NCBI GenBank assembly: GCA_028280065.1
Contig: JANQMN010000104.1
Span: 1-64,000, forward strand
DNA length: 64,000 nt
Direction: 5' to 3'
DNA from: Hahella sp.
GTDB lineage: Bacteria > Pseudomonadota > Gammaproteobacteria > Pseudomonadales > Oleiphilaceae
Position 1 is the first letter of the stretch. Each line of letters opens with the position of its first letter. Under the pieces are notes generated by a model that worked only from the letters and a program-made list of their open reading frames with translations, was not told the origin of the DNA and made no database searches. Of the stretch, positions 7,418-61,572 are shown piece by piece. A program made the translations under genes and the position numbers.

Positions 7418-7684
7418 TCAGGTTGAGCGTTTTGCAAACTTCTCCACAAGCTCTATCGCCCGAAATGCATCCTGTAGGGTATCCATGCTGCAAAGATATT
7501 CTCCATGGCGATAGGATTCCCAGAGGGCGTTGAACTGGGTGGCATCTTTTTGGACATAGCCGTTTATACGTTTCTGTTTGACTCTTACCATTGTGCCGAT
7601 CGTGTCTACCGACTGGATGAGATAACTGCCCATGGTTTCATAGATATGGTTAACCAGATCGTCTACCGCCTTTGTGTTATTCAT
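7418..7684 (-). CDS. Small unknown protein, last gene of the VirD4-like/PEGA unit
   Basis: An 88-residue soluble, helix-rich protein with no signal peptide or membrane helix. I do not recognise a family. It follows the PEGA gene by 65 bases on the same strand, and the reading frame and composition look like real coding sequence. It contains a basic patch (VRVKQKRINGYVQK) and a C-terminal helix (LQDAFRAIELVEKFAKR). It may be a partner of the two membrane proteins upstream, but that rests only on position. Confidence 0.6.
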   Translation of the reverse strand: MNNTKAVDDLVNHIYETMGSYLIQSVDTIGTMVRVKQKRINGYVQKDATQFNALWESYRHGEYLCSMDTLQDAFRAIELVEKFAKRST

Positions 7685-7749
7685 GGTGGCTCAGCTCTTT
7701 GCCAGATTGATTCCCATCGCTGAAAACACGCGTCTCGCAGAAAAGGATT

Positions 7750-8808
7750 TTAGGAGCCCAGATTTCTAAACCAGTCAAGCAAGCCTCCGTCTTCCTTTTT
7801 TTCCTCTTTTTGTGTTTCCTCCGGTTTGATGGCCGGGTCCGCTTGTTCTTCGGCGGCAATTTCAGCCGGCGTTGGTTCAGGTAGTTCGATTGGCTGAAGA
7901 TCGACATCCAGGACGATATCCTCGCGTAGTTCATGCCATAAGTTGCGGGTTTCAAAGCCTTCAGCGGTTACTTCAATGTGGTATGAGCCGTACTCCAATA
8001 ACATTCCTGGGCTATAGCGCGGTTTGATATTAAGGATGCGAATTTTTGCTCCTGGTACGGTACTTACCGCAAAGGTATAGGTCGGGACCGGAGGTTCCTG
8101 TGCGGACTCTTCAACTGGCTGGGAGTCTTCAGGCTCAGCCGCTGCGGTGGCTGCCGCCTGCTGTCGGGCTTCTAGTTCAGCCAGGCGTTGTGCCTCGGCC
8201 GCGGCCCTTTCCTGTTCCTGAATCAGCTCTTCCTTAACGGTAATCTGATCCTCTAACTGATTTATATAAAAGGTTAAATCTTCTATGTTGGCGATTATGA
8301 ACTCCCGCTCCTTCTCCAGCTTTTCTTGGCTGGCTTGTAAATCTGCTACCGTATTTTGATGATCCGGCTGGATTACCGAAGGTTTCCAATCGGTGAGATT
8401 TTGTTGTTCGAAAGAAACCTCAAGTTGGAGCGCTTTGGTTTCTGTACGCCGTAGCTTTTGGATCTGTGCGCGATAGTCGCGTACGGCAAGGTTGTAATCG
8501 ATTTGCACCTGGGAGAATATCTGCCAAGCTTGGTCAAACTTGCGTCTTTTTTCTTCCTCTATTCGAAGTTGCTCCTGGCGTTGCGCTTCGATAGCGGCAA
8601 GGCGTCTTTCCTCCATACCCTGTTGGAGCATTTCCGTGCCTTTAATGCCGCCGGCTATCAAAGCGGGAATGATCAATGCCAAAACCAAATAGCCCAGCAA
8701 AAACGAGCGCAGACGTTGTCGGGTAAGAGCGCGGTCCGGTTCGACCACTGTGGCCTCGGTATCGGCGTCGACGATGCTGGTTTTGAGGATTTTCGCCAGT
8801 TCATTCAT
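7750..8808 (-). CDS. Single-pass membrane protein with long coiled coil and PEGA domain
   Basis: Start chosen at ATG 8806-8808, because GAGGTG lies 5 bases upstream. A GTG at 8818-8820 overlaps the stop of the preceding gene but has a worse site. The 352-residue protein has a cytoplasmic N-terminus (1-33), one TM helix (about 35-55), a long coiled coil (about 60-220, interrupted near 140) and a Pro-rich linker. A PEGA domain follows at about 244-303 (VSTVPGAKIRILNIKPRYSPG...YHIEVTAEGFET). An acidic tail ends in LLDWFRNLGS. PEGA domains are small beta folds usually found outside the inner membrane, often near the cell wall. It is translationally linked to the VirD4-like gene, suggesting a joint envelope complex. 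Confidence 0.8.
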   Translation of the reverse strand: MNELAKILKTSIVDADTEATVVEPDRALTRQRLRSFLLGYLVLALIIPALIAGGIKGTEMLQQGMEERRLAAIEAQRQEQLRIEEEKRRKFDQAWQIFSQVQIDYNLAVRDYRAQIQKLRRTETKALQLEVSFEQQNLTDWKPSVIQPDHQNTVADLQASQEKLEKEREFIIANIEDLTFYINQLEDQITVKEELIQEQERAAAEAQRLAELEARQQAAATAAAEPEDSQPVEESAQEPPVPTYTFAVSTVPGAKIRILNIKPRYSPGMLLEYGSYHIEVTAEGFETRNLWHELREDIVLDVDLQPIELPEPTPAEIAAEEQADPAIKPEETQKEEKKEDGGLLDWFRNLGS

Positions 8809-8816
8809 GCTGCACC

Positions 8817-11462
8817 TCACACCCTTTCCAATGGTTGTAAGCTGATAAGATCTCGTCGCTGGACTTTACCCCGCATCACTTGGGCGAGGGCCATGTTCGG
8901 CGCCACTAACAGGGCATTGATTTCCTCTGGCTCAATATTCCTGTAGTTTCCAACGGTTTGATTTTTAAATGCTTGGCGGCTGGCTTGAGCTTGCTCGGTA
9001 AGAGGTGCTTGCTGTGCTAAGGCGTCAGTGTCAATTTGCGAGGCATCCAAGCTGGTGGTACTGCTGAGAGCAAGCAGTTCGTCACTACCGCTTTTTAGTC
9101 TCAATTGCCGATTGGGATGTTTATCTGGCAGCACCATAAACCGATAAATATCCGCCGGTAGCGTCGCCAGTCGATAGCCTGCCTTCTTCAGTTTAGACAG
9201 TAAGCCGGAGGATTCTTCATGGTAGGCCGCCAAGGGCGATTGCAGCGCCTTGTGAATCCGGTGACTTACCGAGTCAAATGCCGGAGATCTCTCTATCCGT
9301 GGTTTAATGGACGTTCCCATGCGCCGGCTGACATATTCACCGGTCTTTTCAGACTGCTGCCGCAGACCGATCAGGCTTTTGAAATTGCCTAATAACTGGT
9401 CGGAGTACAAGTCGCCAACGCGAACCTGGACGCTGTCCACATACTGACTATTAAAGAGACAACACAAACCGCCTGTTGTGAGGTTATGCAGGAGTTGGGT
9501 TTCGTCCTTGGTGCCCAGTTCCTGGAACTCGTCAATTGCCAGCAACACCGGCATTTGCTTTTCGGTTTTTTGCCAGGTTTTACCTCGTTTGAGAATAGCG
9601 TTATAAAGCCTCTTCTTAATGAAAGCAGAGGCTAATCTGCCTGCGTTTCCATAGCGCAGCGCCGGCAGGCTTATCCCGATTTTTTTGCCTTCGGTCACGG
9701 ACTCGATCGGTATTCCGGTTTGGCTGTTCGCCCATTTCGCCAAAATTTCATGATCTACAATTTGGTAAAGCCAAATGGCAGCCAGATTAATCGCATTGTC
9801 CCGCAACAGTTCGGGGATGAGATCAAACTCCTTACGTAGAAAACTCACTGAGCCTTGCTGGGCCGGCGACATGGAAGTGAGTTCCTCAGGCGTTAGCTTG
9901 CTGAGTTGCTGGATCAGACCCCGTCGGGCGCTTGGATTAACCGTCAAGAGGTAAATTTTCTTCAGGGTGTAGGGTTGATTGGTTGCAACTACTGCATGGG
10001 CCGCCGCACGAATCAGTTTGCTGGCGAGTAACGCGGTGGGGTTCGCTTCGCCATTCTTGTTGTTCAAATCGAAAATAGTGTCGGCGACATCTTCCGGAGT
10101 GAGATTTTCAATGGGATTGATGGGAATACTTTCCGGAGGAATTAACTGGTACTCCTTATTCCGTATTTCTTCCGGTAAACCCTCTTTGCCCGAAAGCACT
10201 AACAGCCCACCAAGTTGAAAATTCAACCACTGCCTTAACAAAGGGCGAAATACACCAGCGGAAACCGAATGCCAATTCCCGCCCAAGATCAGCATATGCT
10301 CGGAAAGATCGTTGACGCTCAGTCCGAATGGCAATCCGGCCATGGAAGGTGCAAGACAGTCGTAGCGTTTATAGAGCGCGCCGGTGGATTCGCCTAATTG
10401 CAAAAAACGCGATTCGTCTTTTTTTGCATTTTCAATCTGCGTCCGGCGGGCCTTTTCCGTTTGCCGGGCATTTACGTGGAAGCCATTGGCTATGGCGTCG
10501 GCGTCATTGCAGCGCTTACTGACGAATTCCAGTTGCCGCATTCGGGACATCAGTTCGTGGTGTTTGGGTTTAGTGAAGCTGATGATTAAACCAAGCAACG
10601 CCAATGCCGCAGAGACAGAGGTGACCATTGCCGCTAATAGCTTCGGATCGGGAAAGTAGATGGTCCAGGGTTGATGTAATAAGTTGACCGCGCCGAACAA
10701 CAAGCCAACGACAATGGTGAAAAGAATCAGGTAAAGCAGACAATTAAAAACAAAGGCGAGGAATTGGGCGCCACGAACTTCAGCCACGGCTTCCTTCACG
10801 GTATTGTAGAAATAGGGCGTCACTAAATCCGTCTCCGTGATCTGCTCGCTTACCGGATGGCCGAGGGCATCAAGCAAAAGTACTCGCCAGGGGTCCCGGA
10901 GGTCGACAGACGCGTCAGCGGTATAAGTTCGGACGATCGTTTTGCTGACCAACTGTACTGCAATCTGTTTGTCTTCGGCTGATATGGAGTAGGGTAAAAT
11001 ATTGGCCAACACGCCGCGTATGCCAAAATCATTGTTGAATACGATGTAGACCATTACCACCGCCGCCAATGTGAGCAAGGTGCTGAACCAAGGCCAGGGC
11101 GAGAGCGCCAGCACCAGAATAAAGAAAAACGCGAACCAGCGCCCGGCGCGCACAAAGGGTTTCTTCGCCTCACTCTTGTAACTTTCGGCATTTCGAAGCG
11201 TGCGCTCGGCCAGTCTGACTCCCAGCATGACATCCAGAAGGCGTTGCGCCATGGCAGTTTTTCGTTCGGATTCGCTTCCGTCGAAGTTAGGTGGATCGGT
11301 CTTGCATATGGAGATGCCTTCATCGCCGAAGCGCGCCATCCAGGTACGCAGCAAAACGGTTCGAAAATGCAGTCGATAGGTGCAGGCTTCCGCCACCAGT
11401 GCGATAAAAGGAATCTTGCTTAATAGGTTCCAAATACTGTGCAGCACTTTGTTCCTTGCCAT
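8817..11462 (-). CDS. VirD4/DotL-like membrane protein lacking Walker A
   Basis: An 881-residue protein. TM segments lie at about 106-142 (a pair), 232-260 and 274-296; a large cytoplasmic domain follows. That domain matches the layout of type IV coupling ATPases such as DotL/IcmO. FGLSVNDLSEHMLILGG stands where the family has its pre-P-loop strand. A LLVLSGKEG strand follows, then KKIGISLPALRYGNAGRL, a Walker B-like LLAIDEFQELG (639-650), and LLGNFKSLIGLRQQSEKTGEY near the end. The expected P-loop GxxGxGKT is replaced by GGNWHSVSAG (394-403), with no Lys-Ser/Thr pair, so nucleotide binding is doubtful. AAGG lies 2 bases before ATG, with GAGG further upstream. No relaxase or VirB genes are nearby. 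I am confident of the fold family and unsure of the function. Confidence 0.72.
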   Translation of the reverse strand: MARNKVLHSIWNLLSKIPFIALVAEACTYRLHFRTVLLRTWMARFGDEGISICKTDPPNFDGSESERKTAMAQRLLDVMLGVRLAERTLRNAESYKSEAKKPFVRAGRWFAFFFILVLALSPWPWFSTLLTLAAVVMVYIVFNNDFGIRGVLANILPYSISAEDKQIAVQLVSKTIVRTYTADASVDLRDPWRVLLLDALGHPVSEQITETDLVTPYFYNTVKEAVAEVRGAQFLAFVFNCLLYLILFTIVVGLLFGAVNLLHQPWTIYFPDPKLLAAMVTSVSAALALLGLIISFTKPKHHELMSRMRQLEFVSKRCNDADAIANGFHVNARQTEKARRTQIENAKKDESRFLQLGESTGALYKRYDCLAPSMAGLPFGLSVNDLSEHMLILGGNWHSVSAGVFRPLLRQWLNFQLGGLLVLSGKEGLPEEIRNKEYQLIPPESIPINPIENLTPEDVADTIFDLNNKNGEANPTALLASKLIRAAAHAVVATNQPYTLKKIYLLTVNPSARRGLIQQLSKLTPEELTSMSPAQQGSVSFLRKEFDLIPELLRDNAINLAAIWLYQIVDHEILAKWANSQTGIPIESVTEGKKIGISLPALRYGNAGRLASAFIKKRLYNAILKRGKTWQKTEKQMPVLLAIDEFQELGTKDETQLLHNLTTGGLCCLFNSQYVDSVQVRVGDLYSDQLLGNFKSLIGLRQQSEKTGEYVSRRMGTSIKPRIERSPAFDSVSHRIHKALQSPLAAYHEESSGLLSKLKKAGYRLATLPADIYRFMVLPDKHPNRQLRLKSGSDELLALSSTTSLDASQIDTDALAQQAPLTEQAQASRQAFKNQTVGNYRNIEPEEINALLVAPNMALAQVMRGKVQRRDLISLQPLERV

Positions 11463-11935: not shown

Positions 11936-14900
11936 TCATGCTTCAATATCGACCAAATGCTGGTCAATCCTTGTTTTAGTTCCTACCGGCGTACCTCGTC
12001 GGCATTGTAATTCCTGTACATCTAAACCAATCTCGGTCAGTTTGTCTCGAAACGACGGTGCTTCCTTGTTGATAAGCCGCAGCGCCGCCGGGCTTTCGGC
12101 CCATATAGTCAGGCCCAGCCGTTCGTCAATCAAAGAAGCCTGGACATACATGGGACCCAAGGGTGCGAGGTCGAATGCAAGGCTGATCAGCCAGCGTTTT
12201 TTCTGTTCGGACTCCACGTTCCGATCCTTCTGCGGCGCTTCCTGATCGATGCGAATCTGAAACGGATCAATGCTCTTTTCACCGGTTAAGAAGGGTACTT
12301 CCATTTGAACGGTGCGCACTGTCGTTTGATCGTTGGATTCGGTCAGGGCGCGGTGGGCGCTGCTGAGTTGATGGAACTGTATCCGATTGAGAGCACCGGC
12401 CAATAATCGCAGTAAAATGCCGACGTTGGCATCGTCATAGGTAAAGTCTTTTCGGATTGGAGTACTGGGTGTAATTAGCTGGGGGAAGTTAAACGGCATA
12501 TTCAATAACTGCGGTTCAGCCGCTGCGGTGATTGGGGACAATAGGCGTCCGTCAGATTCAGGCAGTGGCTGGCCGGTCTTTAAAGCAGCGAATAACTGGC
12601 TGAGCTGAACCTTTAGATCTCTGGCCAGCAACCTTTCTGCCTCTAATCGTTGGTGTTCTCGGAGAATGCTTTCGGCAGATTGTTGCAGCCGGGTATCCGG
12701 CAGAGAGTTTTGTTTTGATGAATTTGCGTTCGGTTTAGACGCGTTCAGAACCTCAGTTTTTTCACTTTCAACTTTCCTTAGTAGCATTTCCGGGGACGGC
12801 GGGATTTTAAGGTTGGCGTCCGGGTTTTTCGCCTGGTTTGGTTGAGCGCCGGACGCCTGATTGGTAGACAGAATCTGCTTCAGTGCATCTTCCGCCCCCA
12901 GTTTTACCAGGGTACTTTGCCGTTGTTCCGCAAATACCCCTGACTGCTGAATTGCCTGCTTCACAGCTACCGTAAGCTTGCTAAAAGTAGCGGCTGGCTG
13001 TTCTTTTGTGTTTGGGGATAAAACTGGGGCGGTAGTTTGCTGAAAGGTTTGTGATTTCGGCAGCGAGTCGAGCAGGTTCCGGACGATGGTTTTTACTTGT
13101 GGAGGAACCGGCTTGTCCTTGCCGATGACCTCCGGCAAGACTTCCAAGACCTGATTCAGCGGCTGCTGGAAAGGCAAAATGCTGCTGAGTGCCCGCAAAA
13201 GAGTACTTAAGCCGGAAGCGGGTTGCGAAGGGATGAGCAACTGCTGGTTCTCAAATTTTACCGATAGGGTTTGCCCCTTCTCCAATGGAAATGTGGTATG
13301 AACGGCGACTGCTTTACCGACGATTCGAAGGATCGATTGAAACAGCTCAGCCGTTTGCTTGTCGTTGCTAAGTTTGTTTACCTGCTCCACCGTGGCCTGA
13401 TATAGCTCGCCGGATTTTAGGCCAAGCGACTGAATGTTGTCCCTGGTCAACGGGGAAACCCTGTCTGACTTTGAAGGTGAATTGGGCGCGATTGGCAGCG
13501 TGGAGTTTATGGTCGAATCCAAAGACGTCGGACTTGACTTCAGCAACCCGCTGGCCGCCAGGATTTGCAATATCTTCAGTTCCGCCGGTAGCGCTATCTT
13601 CTGTAGGTTCTCTCCAAAAGGTTGGGGCACAGGCGTTGGTTGGACGCCTGTCTCGGTAACTCTCTGCAATACAGATTCAAGTTTTTGCGCCAGGGCGAGT
13701 ATTTCGGTTACCGTCGGCGAGGTTTGAACAGGCCTCGCGGAGGTGTTAACGAGCGGTGATCTGGTTGAATCTCTCACTATTGGTGTCCTGGCTTCTGGTG
13801 GTGCAGGGACCAGATCCGGTGGTGCTTTTTCGGATAGTGGGGTGGAGGGTTTGTGTTTGGTTGGTTCAGCGGATGTTTCCGGCCGAGTTTCTGTATTCCT
13901 ACCAAGTGTCTGCAATTTTAGTTCAATAAGCCTGTCACGCAATCTAGTTGCAGTATCCACAAGCTCTTTTACCAATGGCGTATCTGCCGCACCCTGGGTA
14001 GTCGAAGGCTTTCCTGGTGTAGAGTTTAGAGAAGTCGCTGCGCTTGCCGTCTTCTCAGTCTGAGTTGCGGTACCGACAGATTTTTGAAGATTATTTAAGG
14101 GTTGTTGATTGTCGTTTTTTGCCTGGGATTCCTTCGGCATGATCGGAGGTTCGACCGCCTGGGTGCTGACAAATCTTTGGTCGAGTATCTTGCTTATATT
14201 GCCGAGGAAGAACTCAGTTTTTATAGCAGTCGCTTTTAATGCAGTGTTGGCATTACTTATTTCCCTTACAAGTTGCTGACTCTGTTCAACCACTTTTTGC
14301 AACTGCCGAAGCTGGCTATCCGTCTCTCTAACAGGATTGGCTTGTTGCAGTTTGGATGCTTGGTTTTCGGCGGAAATCTGTCTGTGACTTTGCCTGGATA
14401 GGCTATCCGAAATTGTTCTATCCGCTGCCGATTCCACTAGCGGAGCAGAGACTCTTTGCAACGCCTGAGCCAATCCCTGCCAAACGTCTCTCCTGGAAGA
14501 ACTACCCTTGCCGTCCAACAGATTGGATTCGGCGATAATCCGCAGTACGCGACGTTGAATATCGGCGGTTGGTTGCGCCTCGCTTTTCGATGTTGATGAA
14601 CCGGCACCTCCGCTGACTTCGGTAGCAAGCACACTTAAGCTATTTTGTATTGCGCTCTGCAATGGTCTAGGCAGGTTAGCGCTCTCGGTCAGCGCCGCCA
14701 GTTTGGCGATTTCAGCCTTAAACTCCCGCGCGACCCTGTCCGTTTGAAAACTGCTGGCGTTTGTCGCCGGCGTCTGGGTTAGAGAAGTGGCTATGGTTTG
14801 GTTTGCACTCTGCCTTGCGCCGGTCTGTTCCACTATTGTTGGAGCAACAGGCTTTTCCATCCTGTTTGTGGCGTCTTGCCTCGACTGAACAGTTGCAGGT

Positions 14901-15823
14901 TTTTCGCCTCGATTGGTTTGGCCAGATGATACTGCCGAAGACTCTGCTCTTGGACTGGCGTTTTGTGAAGAAATCTTGGCGCGCATTCGGATTAGCGCTT
15001 CGTTTGTACGTGAGTCTTCAACAACGTTTCTATTTTCACCCAATATGTTCAGGTTGCCGGGCGTCACTCTGTTTGAGGAAGGTTGATTGGTTGCTGAAGC
15101 TGCTTTTTCACCGGCAGGACGGCTCTCCTTCGTGGAGGTTGCTGAGGGTGATCCTCCAGCAGGTGATTCCGTTACGGCCGCGCCCGCATTTGCAGAGCGC
15201 AGTAGATTGAGCGTTGCGGTTGTCGTTAATCTGGTACCTTTTACCGGGTCCTGCGCCGGCCCGGGCGTTGGCGTTGGTTTGTTGGCCTCGGGCTTATAAA
15301 GCTTTTCCAGGGCCGGTTTTTGTTCAGTCTGTCTGACTGTATCTTTCGGTGCAGTATTCTCCGGGGCTACGGATTGCTTCCTGTCCGGGACTATGGCGCG
15401 CTGCTTGGATTCAGCGCTAACTTGCTGGGGATTTGATAAGCGCGTTTGCCTGGCGGCGTTGCCATCCACTTTTTCGATTCTCACACTGACCTTATCGCCA
15501 GGTTTGAATTTTGCGTCGGAAATGACCTCCACCGGTCTGTTGTTAATCAGGAGCGTTCGGCTCCGGGAATTTGCCGATGCATCTGATATCGGTCTTTGAG
15601 GAACTTTTGCGTCGTACGAGTTGCCAGGCTTTAAATCCAGTCTTTTAAGATCGGTTTCCATTACTTGAATTTTAATCGGTTGTCTCTGCTGATTATTGGT
15701 CGAACTGCTGACGGACTGGCTGGCCGCTGCATTCCCCGGACTGCTGGCGCTGGCGGTTTGCCTGGTGTTGGCGATTTCAGCAGGAGTACGTTGCTGAGAC
15801 CCTTTGGGAATTTCAATGGACAT
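11936..15823 (-). CDS. Very long FliK-like hook-length control protein
   Basis: A 1295-residue protein, far above the 400-700 usual for FliK. Residues 1 to about 1170 are low-complexity and rich in Ser, Gln, Thr, Pro and Ala, as expected for a disordered ruler. The C-terminus (about 1190-1290) carries the Flg_hook fold: RWLISLAFDLAPLGPMYVQASL, then LTIWAESPAALRLI and LTEIGLDVQELQCRRGTP. A conserved patch near 830-930 (SLGLKSGELYQATVEQV, FPLEKGQTLSVKFENQQLLI) looks like the N-terminal domain seen in some long FliK proteins. It ends 10 bases before the FlhB-like gene, so the two are surely cotranscribed. No other flagellar genes are in the window. If it is a molecular ruler, its length could mean an unusual hook or a different substrate. 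Confidence 0.82.
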   Translation of the reverse strand: MSIEIPKGSQQRTPAEIANTRQTASASSPGNAAASQSVSSSTNNQQRQPIKIQVMETDLKRLDLKPGNSYDAKVPQRPISDASANSRSRTLLINNRPVEVISDAKFKPGDKVSVRIEKVDGNAARQTRLSNPQQVSAESKQRAIVPDRKQSVAPENTAPKDTVRQTEQKPALEKLYKPEANKPTPTPGPAQDPVKGTRLTTTATLNLLRSANAGAAVTESPAGGSPSATSTKESRPAGEKAASATNQPSSNRVTPGNLNILGENRNVVEDSRTNEALIRMRAKISSQNASPRAESSAVSSGQTNRGEKPATVQSRQDATNRMEKPVAPTIVEQTGARQSANQTIATSLTQTPATNASSFQTDRVAREFKAEIAKLAALTESANLPRPLQSAIQNSLSVLATEVSGGAGSSTSKSEAQPTADIQRRVLRIIAESNLLDGKGSSSRRDVWQGLAQALQRVSAPLVESAADRTISDSLSRQSHRQISAENQASKLQQANPVRETDSQLRQLQKVVEQSQQLVREISNANTALKATAIKTEFFLGNISKILDQRFVSTQAVEPPIMPKESQAKNDNQQPLNNLQKSVGTATQTEKTASAATSLNSTPGKPSTTQGAADTPLVKELVDTATRLRDRLIELKLQTLGRNTETRPETSAEPTKHKPSTPLSEKAPPDLVPAPPEARTPIVRDSTRSPLVNTSARPVQTSPTVTEILALAQKLESVLQRVTETGVQPTPVPQPFGENLQKIALPAELKILQILAASGLLKSSPTSLDSTINSTLPIAPNSPSKSDRVSPLTRDNIQSLGLKSGELYQATVEQVNKLSNDKQTAELFQSILRIVGKAVAVHTTFPLEKGQTLSVKFENQQLLIPSQPASGLSTLLRALSSILPFQQPLNQVLEVLPEVIGKDKPVPPQVKTIVRNLLDSLPKSQTFQQTTAPVLSPNTKEQPAATFSKLTVAVKQAIQQSGVFAEQRQSTLVKLGAEDALKQILSTNQASGAQPNQAKNPDANLKIPPSPEMLLRKVESEKTEVLNASKPNANSSKQNSLPDTRLQQSAESILREHQRLEAERLLARDLKVQLSQLFAALKTGQPLPESDGRLLSPITAAAEPQLLNMPFNFPQLITPSTPIRKDFTYDDANVGILLRLLAGALNRIQFHQLSSAHRALTESNDQTTVRTVQMEVPFLTGEKSIDPFQIRIDQEAPQKDRNVESEQKKRWLISLAFDLAPLGPMYVQASLIDERLGLTIWAESPAALRLINKEAPSFRDKLTEIGLDVQELQCRRGTPVGTKTRIDQHLVDIEA

Positions 15824-32246: not shown

Positions 32247-35200
32247 TCAAGATGGCTGATTTATCCTCAGTGTCTGCATTAACAGAAGCACAATGCCGAC
32301 AAGCAACAACCAGCTCATGATCCACAGGAGATGCACCTCTGCAGTGATGAGTAAATAAACGCCGGGAATAATGGCAAAGATGGCGACTGCCCGCGCCAGG
32401 GGCGCCATACGGTTGCTTGGATACCTGCGGACAACAAACGCGCATGCCACGATTAGGAGCGAGATCAAGGCGACAAAAACGACCAGGCCCCGGTTGATCC
32501 ATTTTGGGGTGTAGTCGATTTTGACATAAACCCCGTCTTTGACCTGGCTTGCATAGAGTTTTTCGAAACCGAAATGAACGCCTTCCAGCGGTAACTCCAC
32601 CGCCACCGGACCCGCACCTTGAATGGCGGAAGACTCCGGCAGATAGCCTGACCAGGCCAGTCGCTGATCGAGGTTTGATTCGATGTCTCCGTACCGGTAG
32701 TCATCGGGGAGGTAGAGATCCCAATGGGTTTTGGTTACCACCATGTCAGGCTCGGGTAACAGAAAAGCCAGTGTTCCAATGTTCCGCATCTTTTCCGTTT
32801 GGCTGGCGAAAATAAGCTCCATTGGGAAACCTTGGTTGGAATTGATCATTTTGACCAGAATTTCCATTCCGCTGCCATTGCCAGTGACTGCGGGTTTCTC
32901 TGCCTTCCCATCGACGCTGAGTGACCAGATTTCGCTGTCTTCCGGAAGCTTGACGCGAATGAACTGACGGCGGTTGTTTTTAATCAGGTAGCTGGCGCGG
33001 GTGACCATGAGGCCATCCGCAGTCATCAGGGTCTGATAGGTGGCTGTTTCAATATTCGCCGCAAGCGTTTGCAGTTCCTTGTGATGGGTAACAGCAAGTA
33101 CCAGCTCCACCGGGGGATTGACGTAACGATAAGCCAGGAGAATCGGATTAGTGGTTTTCAAGACCAACTGGCGGGGAAGCTCGCCGACTTCAACGCTGGT
33201 GAGCTGTTCGGCTTTCGACGGCTTGATCTCAACGGCGGCCAGTGCTTCGATGGCTAATCTGCCATGTTCCACCTCTGCGTCCAACACCGATAGTGTCGGC
33301 ACATCCACCGTACTTAAGTCTTCGGCCAAAATACGTTCGTAATTGACATCAATGCGGAATTGGCCCTCCATTTCCTGGGTATACTCGACTTGGATTTTCT
33401 GGTTACCTGATGTTCCTTGGTTATCATTGCCATCGGCAAGTACCTCATAGGTGCGCAAGGCCGGACTGGTAAGGCCGAGAACATTGACATTGCCGGGAAT
33501 GGACAGGGTCGTGGACATCAGGGAGCCGGACTTCACATTAATCTGAATCGCCGTGCTGCCCGTTAAAGTGACATCGCCAACCGATATTAGCGTGTCCACC
33601 GTGGCGTCAAATTTACCTTGTTCACGGACCGGGGGCACCATGGTGACAGTCAGGGCAGAAGGCTTCACACTATATTTATAGGTATGATCGATTTTTAAAC
33701 TGGTACGCTGGCGAATATCACTGGGCAACTGGTTTTCGCCCACTTTCGTCAGACCGCTATCCTGCTTTGGCAATAGCGTTAGTTCTTGACTTTCCAGTAG
33801 CGCGATCATTCCTCGCTGGCGCACGACTTCCACCATTTCTATAAGTGGGATGGCGAACTCCAAATCGTTTTGTGTCCCGACCAGTACTTCATAATCCAGG
33901 ATAAGCTGATGTTTGCCTTTTTGGAGGCTGCGATTGAGAAAAATAGTGAGTATATTGCTGCCGTTTTCCTCGACAGCGCGCCAGTCGACAATCGCATCCA
34001 TTAATCCGGAAACCCGGTTGACCAGGACGCCATCGGGAACGCGCAGCTTAATCTGATTGGTCTCCCCTCGTGTCACTTCGTATTCGATAAGGGTGTCGCC
34101 ATGCAGCACACCCTCCTCGGCATACAACAAGTGGTAGTTAGTGGCATTGGCTCGCAGTTCGGCTTCAATATCCTCCGGAATGGCTTCCTGCCAGGAAAGT
34201 TCGATTTTATTGGTTGACGATAAATAAGTGGATGCATAAGTAACATCGCCATCGAACTTGGTTTCAACATGCGCTGCATTAGAAACGTTAAGCTGTTTGT
34301 TTCCGGATAATTCCAGGTCCAGGGCATTAATGGGAATGAATGGGACCGCGATCGATGCATGGGGTTTGCCCAGACTGTCATTGATGGCTATGACCAGTTC
34401 AATTTCTACTTGAAAATTTCCGGCGCCAGAAACGACCAAATTCAGCATCCCGTTCTCGTTGATTACACGTGCCTTTTCGCCGTCCAATCTGATCGATTGC
34501 ACGATTTGCGACGCCGGAAACAGTTCGACCTTAATCGGGTCGTTGGAAAAGGAAGCCAGTTGGTAAGCGGCTTCGACAAATAGTGCATCGTCCCGTTCCT
34601 TCACCAAATACCGGCTTTGACTGATCAGATACTCATCGAAAATAGCCTGCTGCCAAATCAGCTGCGCCTGATGTATCGGCGGAAGGTTGGCGCTCAAACG
34701 GGTTTGACCGTTGCTTACAACCACCTTTGTATCTACGCCGGGGGTCAGCCTTAAAGACTTATCTTCAAAGGGCAAAGTGGCGGTGAGACTGGTCGCGATT
34801 CCGGGAGTTGCCAGGTTCAGGAGCTGGTTTCGGGCATCCACCTTATATTGAAGGTCGACGGTATATTGCCCTTTGTTTTTGGTCACCCAGTAAAATATTC
34901 CATCCTCCACTGCCAACTGCGCCTGGCGTCCGTTAACCCGCACTCGACTGACAGACACTTGTTGATTTAATAGCGGGATCGCGGTCCAGCGGCTATCAAA
35001 AACCTCGAGGGTAAATCGAATGTTTACTTCGGCATGGATGGCCTTGGTATCCGGATTCTCCTTTCCCGTTATGGTCATATTGGCAAGACCGAAACCATAA
35101 TTGATCGGTGCTTCCTTATAACGCTCTAATTCGGACGCAATGGATTGAAAGCTGGCAAGAGGAACCGTGACTTCGCCAGAGGCACTACTGATCTGACTCG

Positions 35201-35249
35201 CATTGGCGGCAATACTAATGAAGAGCAATAAAGCGACGATAGTTTTCAT
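32247..35249 (-). CDS. 1000-residue membrane-anchored periplasmic beta protein
   Basis: Signal peptide MKTIVALLLFISIAANA, then about 900 residues of strongly beta-patterned sequence without Cys-rich or enzyme motifs. The C-terminus has three membrane helices (GLVVFVALISLLIVACAFVV, LARAVAIFAIIPGVYLLIT and LLWIMSWLLLVGIVLLLMQ). The large domain should lie in the periplasm, anchored in the inner membrane. I do not recognise a named family. It starts inside the stop of the VWA lipoprotein gene (ATGA), so the two are translationally coupled and likely form a complex. The domain may be several repeated sandwich folds, but I cannot count them by eye. Confidence 0.8.
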   Translation of the reverse strand: MKTIVALLLFISIAANASQISSASGEVTVPLASFQSIASELERYKEAPINYGFGLANMTITGKENPDTKAIHAEVNIRFTLEVFDSRWTAIPLLNQQVSVSRVRVNGRQAQLAVEDGIFYWVTKNKGQYTVDLQYKVDARNQLLNLATPGIATSLTATLPFEDKSLRLTPGVDTKVVVSNGQTRLSANLPPIHQAQLIWQQAIFDEYLISQSRYLVKERDDALFVEAAYQLASFSNDPIKVELFPASQIVQSIRLDGEKARVINENGMLNLVVSGAGNFQVEIELVIAINDSLGKPHASIAVPFIPINALDLELSGNKQLNVSNAAHVETKFDGDVTYASTYLSSTNKIELSWQEAIPEDIEAELRANATNYHLLYAEEGVLHGDTLIEYEVTRGETNQIKLRVPDGVLVNRVSGLMDAIVDWRAVEENGSNILTIFLNRSLQKGKHQLILDYEVLVGTQNDLEFAIPLIEMVEVVRQRGMIALLESQELTLLPKQDSGLTKVGENQLPSDIRQRTSLKIDHTYKYSVKPSALTVTMVPPVREQGKFDATVDTLISVGDVTLTGSTAIQINVKSGSLMSTTLSIPGNVNVLGLTSPALRTYEVLADGNDNQGTSGNQKIQVEYTQEMEGQFRIDVNYERILAEDLSTVDVPTLSVLDAEVEHGRLAIEALAAVEIKPSKAEQLTSVEVGELPRQLVLKTTNPILLAYRYVNPPVELVLAVTHHKELQTLAANIETATYQTLMTADGLMVTRASYLIKNNRRQFIRVKLPEDSEIWSLSVDGKAEKPAVTGNGSGMEILVKMINSNQGFPMELIFASQTEKMRNIGTLAFLLPEPDMVVTKTHWDLYLPDDYRYGDIESNLDQRLAWSGYLPESSAIQGAGPVAVELPLEGVHFGFEKLYASQVKDGVYVKIDYTPKWINRGLVVFVALISLLIVACAFVVRRYPSNRMAPLARAVAIFAIIPGVYLLITAEVHLLWIMSWLLLVGIVLLLMQTLRINQPS

Positions 35250-37390
35250 GGTCGGATACCTTCGGACGCGTCCGTTTGCGACAGGTGGGCCGGGAGCACA
35301 CGGCGATACCGTGCATATTCCAGCGAATCAATTAGGTACTGCATTTGTTCGGGGAGTGAAACCTGACTAAGCGCGTTTGCATATTGGGCAAATATTGCCG
35401 TATCCCTCTTTAATTCCTGGTCATGACTAAGATTGGCCAGCGCTGACTGAAGATGATCGATTTGCTGGATTTGCGCAGAGAAAACCGTTTTAGCGCCTTC
35501 TATATTTCCCTGGTCCAAGAAGCTGGCAGCCTGCTGAAAATGTTGCGTTTGCTGGAAGGCTAAAACATTTTTCAGGACGTTGAATTCCAAAGGACCTCTG
35601 CTTTTCGCAATACTGCCAAGGGCGAAACTGCTTTGGTTGTGGCCGTTACGTAAAAACACCAAATCCTTGTATTTCACACTCACTTCCGCCAAGCGGCCGG
35701 GTTGTTCGGCTAGAACATCCAAGAGAATGACATGGTCGTCTCCGGCGTAATAGCTGGGAATAACAATTTGAATACCCGGGTCGTCCTGGCCACGATCGGC
35801 AGCGATTCCGAGATTGGCCGCCATCCGCCGGTCAATGCTCAACTCCATGGCGCGAATTTGCTCAGAGCGTTCTTCTTCCAAGGGTTCCGAACCCAACATA
35901 TCGATGAGCTTAACATTCGCAGCCAGTCGAATATTGATTCGGATGGCACGGGCTACCACGCGGCTTATGATCGAAAGCTCGGTACGCACCAGCGACTCGA
36001 CCTGGTCGATAGCCGAGAGCATTCGAAATCGGCCCTGCCCGTACAGTGCAATTTCATTGAGTTGAGAGCTGGCCGGAAGGTTGATGCCTATCACACTCAT
36101 GGTAATGCCATTCACCGAACTTTGATGCGCCAGCTCTTTTAGTGGCGCCAAACCATGCGTGATATTGAACGGCGAAACCAACACCACAGCGCTTGCCCCG
36201 AGAGGACTCGTCGGGTCATCCCGCGCTTCAACCTTTCCCTTGGCTTTGCGCAATGCTTGAATCAAGCTTAGAGCGGGTTTCGCCTGCAAATAAGGATCAT
36301 TCCCGGTAAACACCTGCTGCAGAATGACGGAAAGCGGTCCATAGTTAAACTGTTCAGGTGTGATCAATGTTTCGCCGGCTTGTCCGGCAAGGATGAGGGT
36401 GAAACGGTCATCAATGCGCCGTTCCTGGCTGAATTTAAAGAGGAGTTCTTGCAGCAACTTTTGATGCCGCATGGATGGCGTTTCTGGTAAATAGACGACC
36501 ATGGCAATGTTCATCGCGGGCCGTCTTCCACTGAGCTGTTCGGTACCCTTAAGTCCCACTTGTAACATCAGTCTTGTCGGTCCGGCAACGGCGGTTTTAT
36601 CGGCATGGACATAGACATTCAGCGCCGAGTTAGTCGGCGGATCGAAGGGCTGCCAATACTGTGCGAGCAATGTTTCGGGTGTGGCGAAAGGGATGAGATG
36701 ACGTTGCCGGTCCAAACGGTGTTGCAGATAGCGGAAATGCGGGTCGCCGGGTATATAGGTATTCTTCCAATAGCCTTGCGCAGACTTGAACTGAAGGCCG
36801 TCAATGCGGTCACGGCTATCAAAAAAACTCGACAGCCGGCGATCCTTATCATCTCCGGCATCCCGCTGACCAGGGAACTGTCCGGAGGCAGCTTCGCCTG
36901 CCGTCGGCATTGGCGATGCAGGTTTGGGGGAGGGCATAGAGGCATCTTGTTCAATCAACTCAGCGATGACTTCTTCGCTTGGCTCAATGACGCCGCCAAC
37001 AAAGCCATCTGCACGCAGGCGGAGACCTTTAGCGTTATCGGCCATTTCGATGGTAATACGGCTGGAGTCTTCAGGAGCGCCCATGTTGTCACGCTGTTTC
37101 TTTTCTTTTTTACCAGATGCTTCCGGCACACGATACTGGTTAACGGCCTGATTTTGGGTCGTATTGGAGAGGTTGGCCAACTCGTTCTTTAACCGGTCCG
37201 ACTGCTCGCTAGGCAGAATCTTCGCCTGGGATTGCGCCATCTGCGGTTCAGGTTCCATTTCCATCGGCATGGGGGCTTCACTTGCCGCGTCCAGCGTGGC
37301 CTCGGGATGACCGGCCTGATCCTGCGACTGGGAACACCCGACGAGTAACGTGACAATGAAACAGGGTATGAGCCGTTGCAAACAACGCAT
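35246..37390 (-). CDS. VWA-domain (YfbK-like) lipoprotein without metal site
   Basis: A 714-residue lipoprotein: signal MRCLQRLIPCFIVTLLVGC with the acylated Cys at 19, then a disordered Pro/Met/Glu-rich stretch to about 220. Residues about 285-470 look like a von Willebrand A fold: NIAMVVYLPETPSM, DRFTLILAG, GASAVVLVSPFNITHG, LAHQSSVNGITMSVIGINL and IALYGQGRFRMLSAIDQVESL. A YfbK-type C-terminal part follows (RVVARAIRINIRLAANVKLIDMLGSEPL). The MIDAS motif DxSxS should follow the first strand but is replaced by YLPETPSM, so metal-dependent adhesion looks lost. It is coupled to the 1000-residue membrane protein downstream. Confidence 0.78.
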   Translation of the reverse strand: MRCLQRLIPCFIVTLLVGCSQSQDQAGHPEATLDAASEAPMPMEMEPEPQMAQSQAKILPSEQSDRLKNELANLSNTTQNQAVNQYRVPEASGKKEKKQRDNMGAPEDSSRITIEMADNAKGLRLRADGFVGGVIEPSEEVIAELIEQDASMPSPKPASPMPTAGEAASGQFPGQRDAGDDKDRRLSSFFDSRDRIDGLQFKSAQGYWKNTYIPGDPHFRYLQHRLDRQRHLIPFATPETLLAQYWQPFDPPTNSALNVYVHADKTAVAGPTRLMLQVGLKGTEQLSGRRPAMNIAMVVYLPETPSMRHQKLLQELLFKFSQERRIDDRFTLILAGQAGETLITPEQFNYGPLSVILQQVFTGNDPYLQAKPALSLIQALRKAKGKVEARDDPTSPLGASAVVLVSPFNITHGLAPLKELAHQSSVNGITMSVIGINLPASSQLNEIALYGQGRFRMLSAIDQVESLVRTELSIISRVVARAIRINIRLAANVKLIDMLGSEPLEEERSEQIRAMELSIDRRMAANLGIAADRGQDDPGIQIVIPSYYAGDDHVILLDVLAEQPGRLAEVSVKYKDLVFLRNGHNQSSFALGSIAKSRGPLEFNVLKNVLAFQQTQHFQQAASFLDQGNIEGAKTVFSAQIQQIDHLQSALANLSHDQELKRDTAIFAQYANALSQVSLPEQMQYLIDSLEYARYRRVLPAHLSQTDASEGIRP

Positions 37391-59059: not shown

Positions 59060-61084
59060 ATGGACTTTGTGAATTTGGATCTTGCCAACTTAGGTACCTG
59101 TATTGCCGTCAATGGCCCCGAAGTCGAATTGCCGGGGTATCAGCGGCTGCGATTTGATCTCCAGGGCACTCTGACTCCGGAACACTTTCTGCTGACTCTT
59201 GCCCCAAATCAAATTCGAAACCTGTACCTGCTGGCCGCCGCTACGCCATATTCCCATCTTCTCCGTCATCTGCCTGCGCATTGGGAAATGAACATCGGTA
59301 TTCCGCAATACATCAGCATTCTCCTGCGTAGCGGCTTCATCCACATTCATATGTATCGCCAGGCGGTCGTAGAATCCGTGGAGCATCCTCAAACCCAGCA
59401 GCTTCGCAGCCAGATCAATAAGCTGTTACAAGAGATTCTGCAGGAAGAAAAAGCCAACGCACTGGCCATTGCCAACCAACAAGCGGAAAGAGGTTTGGTT
59501 GGCAAAGCCGGCGCTTATCTGGCGGCATTCGGGACCGGACTGGGTAATGCCGCCTGGGATATGGCTGTTTGGGTAAAAGACGTCGTGGAGTTAGGCTCAC
59601 CTGCGTTGAAGTTCTATCGAATCGTCAAGGCCGCAACGGAAACGGGCCTAACGACCCGAGACAACGAAGAATGGCACCGGGTTTTCTTTGCCAAAATGCA
59701 CAAGGCGGAGCACAAGGAGTTAGTCGATGTGCTCGGGTTCGATCCGAACAAGATTTCTGCTGAAGTCCTCAAGCAGGCATACGATACAGCTATGCTTATC
59801 TGGCAGGATGAGAAATCGCAAAAGATGCTTATCCAGTTCTCAAAGGACTTTCTGAGCGCACAGCATAGTCTGGAAGTTACTGAGTTCGTGGGAGGAGCCG
59901 CTTTCGAGCTGCTATTGGCGGCAATTATCGCAGCCTTGACCGGCGGTGCCGGAGCCGTAGCCATAGGTGCTTCAAAGGTTCGTCATGCCGCCCGCATGAA
60001 AAAACTTGGGGAGTTGTTCCTCAAGTTGGCAAAGCAGGTGAAACATTATAAGCAAAATGCTTTCGGCCGCTTAAAGCCTGCCAAGTCCAAGCCGGGGACA
60101 AATCTTCCCGGGCCGAAAACGCCGAAGCCGGAACCCATTAAGATTGATCAACCTAAAAAAGAAAAAAAAGCTGTTGTCGCAGAACAAAACAAGATCGCCA
60201 AAGTCGAGGAACCCAAACAAACCGAAATCTCATATCGAAAAGGACTGATTCCGAGGTCGTTGGATGATGCCGCAAATCGGCTTAAAACCATGAGAACATC
60301 CATTGAAACGAATGGTCACCAACCGAAATATTCCGATGCCGAGCTGCTTGCGATGGCTGATTCAGGGACTGTACCCAGGGAGCGCTACCAGGTGCGGTTT
60401 ATGCCGAAACGCTTTTTGAACGATAGAAATGCAAAAAATGAATATTTAAGCGGCAAAATGGGTGGACCCTTTTATGGGGATAATGCCGAGGGAGTAAAAT
60501 ATTGGTCCACCAGCTTTGACCAATTGGAGGATGCGGATACGGACCCCAAGCTCATTTCGGAAAAAGTAGGTATTGATTATACCCCCGATGACTATGTGCT
60601 TATTATTGTGGATAGCGAAAAAGCAGCTCAATTGTCGGGATCGAAAGCAGTCACACCTACCTTCCGTGAACTCGGGGAGTTTGCCGTCGATGAATTGCCG
60701 TCAAAGTATTCAAAAGCGGATATAGAAGCGGTGTATAACGCTGAATTCCAAGAAAAATATAGCACTTTGTATAAGCAAGCTGAAAAACAAGGCATTGATC
60801 TTTGGGATGAACAGGACAGAGCTGCTTTCGAACCTACTTTGATAAAAAATGGCATTGATCCAAAAGACTTTGAAAACAGAATCAGGCTTCATGGTACCTT
60901 GGGTAGCAATGAGGATTTTCTAGGTAATGGGGTAACGAAGAACTTGATAGACTCCTCCTCCAACCAATATGGCGTCGTGGAAACTTTCACTTTTGATACG
61001 TCTCCGCAAAAATTATCCACTCTTGAAGAAAAAGGGGCGATCAAAATCGTGGATAATCTGTCGATTATCGGGAGTGGTAAATGA
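59060..61084 (+). CDS. Polymorphic-toxin-like effector with C-terminal toxin domain
   Basis: A 674-residue protein with AGAGG 7 bases before ATG. Residues 1-110 form an unknown domain. Residues 140-260 are helical and resemble effector trunk regions (GTGLGNAAWDMAVWVKDVVELGSPALKFYRIVKAATETGLTT). A hydrophobic segment spans about 276-304. A Lys/Pro-rich linker at 335-395 leads to the C-terminal domain (400-674), which is more A+T-rich, as swapped toxin tips often are. I do not recognise the toxin activity. Its last base overlaps the next gene's ATG (ATGA), the usual arrangement for a toxin with its immunity gene. No VgrG, PAAR or Hcp is in the window, so type VI delivery is an inference. Confidence 0.72.
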   Translation: MDFVNLDLANLGTCIAVNGPEVELPGYQRLRFDLQGTLTPEHFLLTLAPNQIRNLYLLAAATPYSHLLRHLPAHWEMNIGIPQYISILLRSGFIHIHMYRQAVVESVEHPQTQQLRSQINKLLQEILQEEKANALAIANQQAERGLVGKAGAYLAAFGTGLGNAAWDMAVWVKDVVELGSPALKFYRIVKAATETGLTTRDNEEWHRVFFAKMHKAEHKELVDVLGFDPNKISAEVLKQAYDTAMLIWQDEKSQKMLIQFSKDFLSAQHSLEVTEFVGGAAFELLLAAIIAALTGGAGAVAIGASKVRHAARMKKLGELFLKLAKQVKHYKQNAFGRLKPAKSKPGTNLPGPKTPKPEPIKIDQPKKEKKAVVAEQNKIAKVEEPKQTEISYRKGLIPRSLDDAANRLKTMRTSIETNGHQPKYSDAELLAMADSGTVPRERYQVRFMPKRFLNDRNAKNEYLSGKMGGPFYGDNAEGVKYWSTSFDQLEDADTDPKLISEKVGIDYTPDDYVLIIVDSEKAAQLSGSKAVTPTFRELGEFAVDELPSKYSKADIEAVYNAEFQEKYSTLYKQAEKQGIDLWDEQDRAAFEPTLIKNGIDPKDFENRIRLHGTLGSNEDFLGNGVTKNLIDSSSNQYGVVETFTFDTSPQKLSTLEEKGAIKIVDNLSIIGSGK

Positions 61085-61572
61085 TAACGCCAATTAGGCT
61101 AACTCCGAACGGCAGGGTACCTGACGATCTTGCTTTAATCTGCAAGGTACAAGATAACTTTTCCGAAAACTCCAAAACTTATTACCTGTATCGGTTCTCC
61201 TCAGTTGCTGTATTTTATTCGGAAAAACCGCATCGCCTGCGAGATGGTGAAATGACGACAACGCAATTTTGCTTGCCCTATACAGGTCTCTGCTGGCTGG
61301 CAGAATCGATCAGAGGTTTCTACACTGCTCCCGCTGATGGAGGACAACCTGCCGGTAAAATTGGTGCCGAAACCAAGATTGAAGGTGAGCATTTACTACT
61401 GCACAGAGCAGCAAGTATAGAAGGTACATCCTATTCCGGGTTCGTTTTATGCAACTTAAGCCGAGAAGTCTATGGAAGGACAGGGCGCGGAATCACCCAG
61501 GAACTGCCAATGACTGATAGTTTTCTAAAGAGAAGTGATTTTTTACATATCCTGAAAGGCAAGATTGGATAA
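61081..61572 (+). CDS. Putative immunity protein for the upstream toxin
   Basis: A 163-residue protein without a signal peptide (MITPIRLTPNGRVPDDLALICKVQDNFSENSKTYYLYRFSSVAVF...). Its ATG overlaps the toxin stop, ensuring coupled translation. Cytoplasmic location suggests the toxin acts in the cytoplasm. The family is not recognised; the assignment rests on position, size and coupling. Confidence 0.68.
   Translation: MITPIRLTPNGRVPDDLALICKVQDNFSENSKTYYLYRFSSVAVFYSEKPHRLRDGEMTTTQFCLPYTGLCWLAESIRGFYTAPADGGQPAGKIGAETKIEGEHLLLHRAASIEGTSYSGFVLCNLSREVYGRTGRGITQELPMTDSFLKRSDFLHILKGKIG

Follow-up and report, generated by a model that had tools for sequence, protein, structure and literature searches.

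What remains for a type IV coupling protein (T4CP) once its ATP-binding loop has been lost is the question raised by a gene of Hahella sp. located in a stretch of 64,000 nucleotides (assembly GCA_028280065.1, contig JANQMN010000104.1, positions 1 to 64,000), here called the window. The gene spans positions 8817 to 11462 on the reverse strand (stop codon included) and encodes a protein of 881 amino acids (aa), which is followed by a putative membrane protein. In the preliminary description of the locus a non-ATPase scaffold, a subunit with a hidden partner and a new envelope machine were considered. The comparisons presented here tentatively favour, at somewhat less than an even chance, a T4CP of a mobilization module that was stranded on the chromosome and is kept as a non-motor membrane protein, possibly dampening coupling as a decoy. 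The main rival, a functionless relic, is nearly as plausible as a brake.

Identification of the coupling protein

The open reading frame (ORF) of the window T4CP runs through 881 codons without interruption, and its guanine plus cytosine (GC) content by codon position resembles that of the other genes of the window. In Pfam, the TraG-D_C (TraM recognition) domain (PF12696; 9309..9551, reverse strand) was matched with 23.4 bits at a curated cut-off of 22, and two conjugative TraD models were matched far under their cut-offs (E=1.5e-8 and 1.3e-5). The segments KKIGISLPALRYG, LLAIDEFQELG and LIGLRQQSEKTGEY are present and each aligns with the corresponding segment of T4CPs, so that the landmarks of a coupling ATPase listed in the preliminary description were borne out. 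A comparison with HerA profiles had also been proposed there; TraG-D_C was matched instead, and no HerA or FtsK profile of Pfam was found on the window T4CP at E<=1, while DUF87 (HerA) gave a weak match in two of its relatives. Hydropathy scanning of the N-terminal membrane region (10581..11156, reverse strand) revealed hydrophobic stretches at residues 103-142, 241-259 and 276-294. The hydrophobic N-terminus reported earlier thus stands, with three regions, or three to four helices, in place of four helices.

When the window T4CP was used as a single query against the PDB, no match was obtained at E<=10. With a T4CP profile as query, TrwB of R388 (1e9r; E=0.049) and DotL/IcmO (6sz9; E=0.44) were matched, both marginally, over the Walker B region and beyond; in these alignments both show, unlike the window T4CP, a canonical Walker A, and TrwB in addition has Arg375. 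In BLASTP, the T4CP of a plasmid of the relaxase class MOBQ was matched with E=1e-42. Judged from its sequence, the 881-residue protein is genuinely related to T4CPs but degenerate as an ATPase, and it is a full-length homologue of the coupling proteins of plasmid-type mobilization modules (Pfam, BLASTP and alignments A2 and A4).

Loss of the nucleotide-binding site

The replacement of Walker A by GGNWHSVSAG, as previously described, was read at residues 394-403 (10254..10283; all positions in this section are on the reverse strand). In alignment A4, GxxxxGKT is present in all ten other rows and missing from the window T4CP; three of these rows are close Arenicella-type relatives and hence not independent. 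A4 does not contain the homologues of genomes G263, G245 and G330, plasmid copies such as that of locus L003 or unfetched plasmid matches. The G263 and G245 homologues also carry GxxxxGKT in the matching open frame, and the frame in G330 is unsettled. Among the 21 columns that are invariant in the ten relatives, the window T4CP retains 14 and has lost seven (G397, G399, K400, T401, D424, G453 and R662), six of which belong to Walker A, to the Asp behind it or to the arginine finger. The Asp of the DGKG/DIKG motif, found in the ten aligned relatives, is replaced by S424 (10191..10193), and T662 (9477..9479) stands where 10 of 10 relatives have Arg. D644-E645 of Walker B (9528..9533), invariant in 11 of 11 rows and aligned with TrwB in 1e9r, was retained, as was Q673.

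In the HMMER alignment the R662 column falls on residue 305 of the 1e9r chain, which we take to be Arg375 of TrwB after addition of the 70 residues absent from the construct. Arg375 of TrwB is termed an arginine finger, and Cag-beta is proposed to use an Arg within Walker A in place of the usual one (PMC9886983, available in part). In contrast to Cag-beta, the loop of the window T4CP contains no Arg. For the remaining rows of A4, leave-one-out counting excludes the columns of Walker A and of the finger, which drop out through the window's own deviation, and the statement on these columns is based on the identity of the ten rows there. In a five-row alignment, 66 of 87 invariant cytoplasmic positions were retained by the window T4CP and five of six in Walker A were lost (Fisher p=0.003), a test that covered Walker A only and not all catalytic positions jointly. 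We infer that the window T4CP has ceased to hydrolyse ATP and to pump DNA.

An assembly or sequencing error in a normal T4CP might be suspected in a draft of 151 contigs and with a single genome at hand. GGNWHSVSAG is at least 11 to 13 substitutions away from GxxxxGKT within 30 bases, all in frame; the alignment is gap-free at this position, and no GKT pattern occurs in the other two frames of the segment, for which reason a frameshift was rejected. These at least 11 in-frame changes, the missing gap and the missing GKT in the other frames make a local sequencing error very unlikely, and with the independent losses at 424 and 662 an error of any kind is given next to no credence. Homologues with an intact Walker A, differing from the window T4CP by a local error only, had been named beforehand as an outcome that would speak against the description; Walker A is indeed intact in the homologues, yet a local error does not account for the difference, as D424 and R662 are lost as well.

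Very improbable, too, is an active nucleoside triphosphatase whose phosphate-binding loop is unconventional or has moved elsewhere, for which the loose Walker-A-like string AILKRGKT (residues 622-629; window 9576-9599) would be a candidate. The DE of Walker B and Q673 are retained, the pattern [AG]x4GK[ST] arises in 4.1% of shuffles of the window T4CP and is found as a second copy in none of the ten aligned relatives, and, as Cag-beta shows, the arginine finger of a T4CP can come to lie inside Walker A (PMC9886983, available in part). The string is located just ahead of the Walker B strand, at a position occupied by GD in six of the ten relatives (in five of these as RGDxW). In RecA-like folds the loop before the Walker B strand lies on the edge opposite the nucleotide pocket. 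Moreover, Asp424 and the arginine finger are also lost, and the old loop holds neither Lys nor Arg. AILKRGKT is a probable chance match, and its interpretation as a displaced Walker A was judged unlikely in view of its place just before the Walker B strand, at the GD position of the relatives.

Relatives and their gene neighbourhoods

A tblastn search of 72,556 plasmid records yielded 16 with a match (E<=0.01), mostly small mobilizable enterobacterial plasmids of about 6.9 kilobases (kb) and one of 16.9 kb. The latter, pBK28610, carries Tn4401 with blaKPC-3. In single-protein searches, only the genome itself was matched among 58 genomes taken as relatives (E<=0.001), and eight of 369 genomes of a class sample, itself included, were matched at E<=1e-8, three of them being of one genus and Arenicella-type. 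Profile searches gave nine of 369 genomes in the class sample (E<=1e-15) and three of 398 in the phylum sample (E<=1e-20), again with itself included. Scans of viral contigs with three queries returned no relatives. In the tree, the window T4CP falls into a clade of six rows (support 91/93, not starred) whose internal order is unresolved.

The gene neighbourhoods were examined at 11 loci of relatives (L003, L004, L005, L006, L015, L016, L017, L018, L019, L020 and L026), a count that leaves out G245, G330 and 12 of the 16 plasmid records. At 10 of the 11 a relaxase was annotated or detected in the fetched stretch: a MobA/MobL-like one at eight loci (by annotation, Pfam or tblastn similarity, with only a partial match at L019), MobF at L006 and a match to the VirD2-type Relaxase family at L026; at L018 none was found with the queries used. 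L015 and L016, both from Arenicella, also hold ParA- and Rep-like genes, named by eye with similarity seen. The relatives have the appearance of plasmid mobilization modules, and the window T4CP is probably a motor taken out of service or put to another use, and not part of the new envelope machine that had been considered. At L020 (9110-13086, reverse strand), two tandem coupling-protein paralogues, both with an intact Walker A, are located beside a MobA/MobL-like fragment.

Three kinds of relatives were compared in detail. The T4CPs of the 6.9-kb MOBQ plasmids (for example pYUAHMCS11-2, NZ_CP102758), annotated as 'TraM recognition domain-containing protein', have about 30% identity to the window T4CP over residues 319-716 and share with it the membrane region, Walker B, a C-terminal RRD motif and a small single-span charged neighbour. 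In contrast to the window T4CP, they have an intact GGTGTGKT, the Asp and the Arg and are plasmid-borne with a MobA/MobL relaxase, and their neighbour is located upstream of the T4CP, has 129 aa and shows no PEGA-like part. At L003 and L004, which comprise a 6.9-kb plasmid of this kind and the 16.9-kb relative pBK28610, the 6.9-kb plasmid holds its own coupling protein and a small single-span charged protein. The Arenicella-type modules (L015, L016, L017 and L021), in the order MobA, T4CP and partner, have a T4CP that is 28% identical over its full length and likewise a single-span charged partner directly downstream of it, but they differ by an intact GASGTGKT, a MobA/MobL relaxase upstream and a partner that is not clearly homologous. 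At the plasmid-like locus of genome G661 (L026), from the same order, a T4CP that is 28-29% identical precedes a membrane protein that likewise has a PEGA-like part; here GGTGSGKT is intact, and a VirD2-type relaxase and a NikA-like protein are found nearby.

A nucleotide-binding domain with Walker motifs is described as common to all T4CPs, and mobilizable plasmids with a T4CP of their own are described as few, forming MOBC1 with CloDF13 (PMC7434980, available in part). The MOBQ-linked T4CPs compared here are annotated in databases, and no title specific to them was among the literature matches listed. Nor was a natural coupling protein without Walker A found in the titles and abstract openings among the matches listed, which mostly do not extend to subscription papers.

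The PEGA-like partner and the small gene

The gene that follows the T4CP gene (7750..8808, reverse strand) encodes a single-span, charged protein of 352 aa when read from ATG 8808, or of 356 aa from GTG 8820; its composition suggests a coiled coil. The GTG overlaps the stop codon of the T4CP gene, and the ATG, 8 bases beyond that stop and behind GAGG, is the more likely start. A PEGA-like part was located at residues 245-315 of the 356-aa version (7876..8088, reverse strand). PEGA (PF08308) was not matched by Pfam at E<=1 on the window partner, and the assignment is drawn from the resemblance to proteins annotated as PEGA and to the G661 partner protein, which itself remains under the PEGA cut-off of Pfam. 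The PEGA part aligned with the G661 neighbour with a score of 71, compared to 22.9 +/- 4.1 in shuffles (none of 2000 reaching the score), and it is at least as similar to Pseudoalteromonas PEGA proteins and to proteins of its own genus. The G661 partner gene was not listed by tblastn over the fetched loci, and the Arenicella partner was not clearly homologous to that of the window, as 6 of 500 shuffles reached the score.

Across the clade's five lineages, the T4CP gene has next to it, or two genes off, a gene for a protein with a single main hydrophobic span and, after it, a charged region poor in Pro and Gly, the genes having been picked by eye from ORF lists with the hydropathy threshold lowered to 1.3 and with no random control. 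In the partner-like protein of the small plasmid the span lies past the middle, and the G661 partner has a second hydrophobic stretch. These observations hint at a charged partner with a single span that accompanies the T4CPs throughout this clade. The PEGA-like protein of the window is itself likely to be a conserved partner of the T4CP. Of the translationally linked PEGA protein described earlier, the link to a PEGA-like protein was thus seen again in one independent genome, G661, while Pfam does not call the domain and the overlapping start is the less likely one; the Walker A loss was seen in no relative found.

An ORF of 88 aa (7418..7684, reverse strand) lies 65 bases beyond the partner gene. 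No homologue was found in the libraries and loci searched, its membership is uncertain, and its inclusion as a conserved member of the gene set was dropped. A defence-system reading was likewise discarded: PADLOC returned mad8 for the T4CP (E=0.016) and LmuB for the partner (E=0.005 and 0.05).

Genomic surroundings

Pfam scanning of 46 of 47 chosen ORFs of the window gave no relaxase or type IV secretion family besides the T4CP. About nine of the scanned ORFs had no match at all, and the others are ordinary genes, including those for LacI, LamB, a GH13 enzyme, FliK, an FlhB-like protein and glutamine synthetase. No transfer RNA gene was found in the window. Six genomes of the same genus have both fliK and the small flhB-like gene, but the 13-17 kb around these genes gave matches to almost no further protein of the window (ORFs listed for L039 only), so that a clean empty site was not observed.

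Several ORFs of the window were recorded as side observations. FliK (11936-15823, reverse strand) has 1295 aa, compared to open frames of 463-522 aa in the six genomes of the genus, and the small gene beside it matches only the C-terminal part of FlhB. Two adjacent large ORFs of 1000 and 714 aa (32250-37390, reverse strand) and two ORFs of 674 and 163 aa that overlap at stop and ATG (59060-61569, forward strand) had no Pfam matches at 1e-4.

In the host genome, no MobA_MobL relaxase was found; this was the one relaxase family searched genome-wide. On contig C66, VirD4-, VirB11-, VirB4-, VirB8-, VirB9-, VirB10- and VirB6-type genes, named by their Pfam matches, form a secretion set (L063, 382-15004) with a VirD4-type T4CP of its own that has the normal loop APTRSGKG; no relaxase was present among the 10 proteins scanned of this set. 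The earlier statement that conjugation, relaxase and VirB genes are missing therefore holds for the scanned proteins of the window and fails for the genome. This second T4CP inside a VirB cluster would fit a regulatory or structural subunit, in which the window T4CP co-assembles with an active ATPase such as that of C66 or acts together with its partner as an envelope scaffold for another substrate; the retained Walker B and Q673 would be compatible with subunit contacts. The two loci are on different contigs with no genetic link, their T4CPs lie very far apart in the tree, and the C66 cluster already has its own coupling protein, and we regard a subunit role as rather improbable. The non-ATPase scaffold of the preliminary description is, as such, close to the reading preferred here.

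Maintenance of the gene

Approximately 4% of the possible single-base changes in the T4CP gene would create a stop codon, and neutral drift of d=0.05 per site would leave the gene without a stop with P of about 0.005 (indels not counted). Much of the loss thus appears to have come under constraint on the remainder of the protein, because unconstrained drift would bring stops.

These figures bear on the functionless relic, according to which an integrated mobilizable element has lost its relaxase and replication genes, and T4CP and partner are drifting with stops yet to come. Such a relic would be expected to acquire stops early, yet 881 and 352 codons are open while at least 11 base changes are packed into one 30-base motif; the conserved cytoplasmic positions are largely retained, at 66 of 87, and the codon-position GC of the T4CP gene is like that of other window genes. 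The relic is in turn favoured by the patchy presence of the T4CP, with only itself among the 58 relative genomes and, in the order, two of 341 genomes (one of them its own), by the lack of a recognised relaxase in the window and of MobA_MobL in the genome, by the 88-aa gene for which no relatives were found, and by losses outside the catalytic site (G453 in A4 and others in A2). On balance, the relic is considered somewhat less likely than the preferred reading, though it is a rival to be reckoned with.

A motor-dead coupling protein as a possible brake

According to the reading preferred here, the T4CP of a mobilization module would have been left on the chromosome and would have lost its motor site while its frame, membrane segments, Walker B and C-terminus were retained. 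The dead T4CP would reside in the inner membrane with the PEGA-like partner extending into the periplasm, and it would occupy the partners of coupling proteins, be these subunits, the channel base or the relaxosome. Coupling by mobile elements or by the host VirB/VirD4 system may thereby be dampened, as with a natural dominant-negative coupling protein.

Precedents for the single elements of this mechanism exist. A mutant of TrwB in the Lys of Walker A is transfer-deficient, and its soluble form has no ATPase activity; with a chimeric T4CP beside the native one, R388 and pKM101 are transferred less often by an order of magnitude (the two drops being from 2.1e-1 to 1.1e-2 and from 2.2e-1 to 1.1e-2; PMC7431656, available in part). 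The fertility inhibitors PifC and Osa act on coupling proteins and block transfer (PMC5696584, available in part). Because of these precedents, a dead membrane-bound T4CP is a plausible brake. PifC and Osa resemble the window T4CP in the proposed role only, in that coupling proteins are targeted and transfer is blocked, and were compared by function, not by sequence.

Several observations weigh against this reading. The chimera in the dominance test had an intact Walker A, and no dominance test of the TrwB Walker A mutant was seen in the available part of PMC7431656. Other genomes of the genus gave no match to the T4CP (none of six), and the profile search of the order sample (E<=1e-10) matched only the genome itself and G661, with 339 of 341 genomes remaining without a match. 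No relative with the same Walker A loss was found, and selection on the degenerate form is not measurable. In the whole G661 genome the sole match to the window partner was the gene directly after the T4CP gene, and this match was weak (E=0.0025); outside the PEGA part, the similarity of the two partners in the N-terminal half was weak as well, with 18 of 500 shuffles reaching the score, and PEGA domains are common. Structure prediction for the 881-aa T4CP and one relative gave a mean predicted local distance difference test (pLDDT) score of 35.4 and was uninformative as to the hexameric, RecA-like fold and the all-alpha domain of T4CPs. The AILKRGKT string also has to be counted here.

Within the preferred reading, the use as a dampener of coupling is a guess and perhaps applies. 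A bolder version, in which a chromosomally fixed, motor-dead T4CP and its envelope partner would form a standing brake that joins and poisons rings, relaxosomes or channel bases, whether these belong to incoming elements or to the host type IV secretion system, and which would amount to fertility inhibition by a pseudo-enzyme made from a part of a mobile element, is doubtful.

A full-length T4CP relative that lacks the P-loop, the following Asp and the arginine finger would naturally separate docking from pumping. If it is kept for use, the window T4CP would offer a ready-made test of whether cells turn the motors of mobile elements into interference devices.

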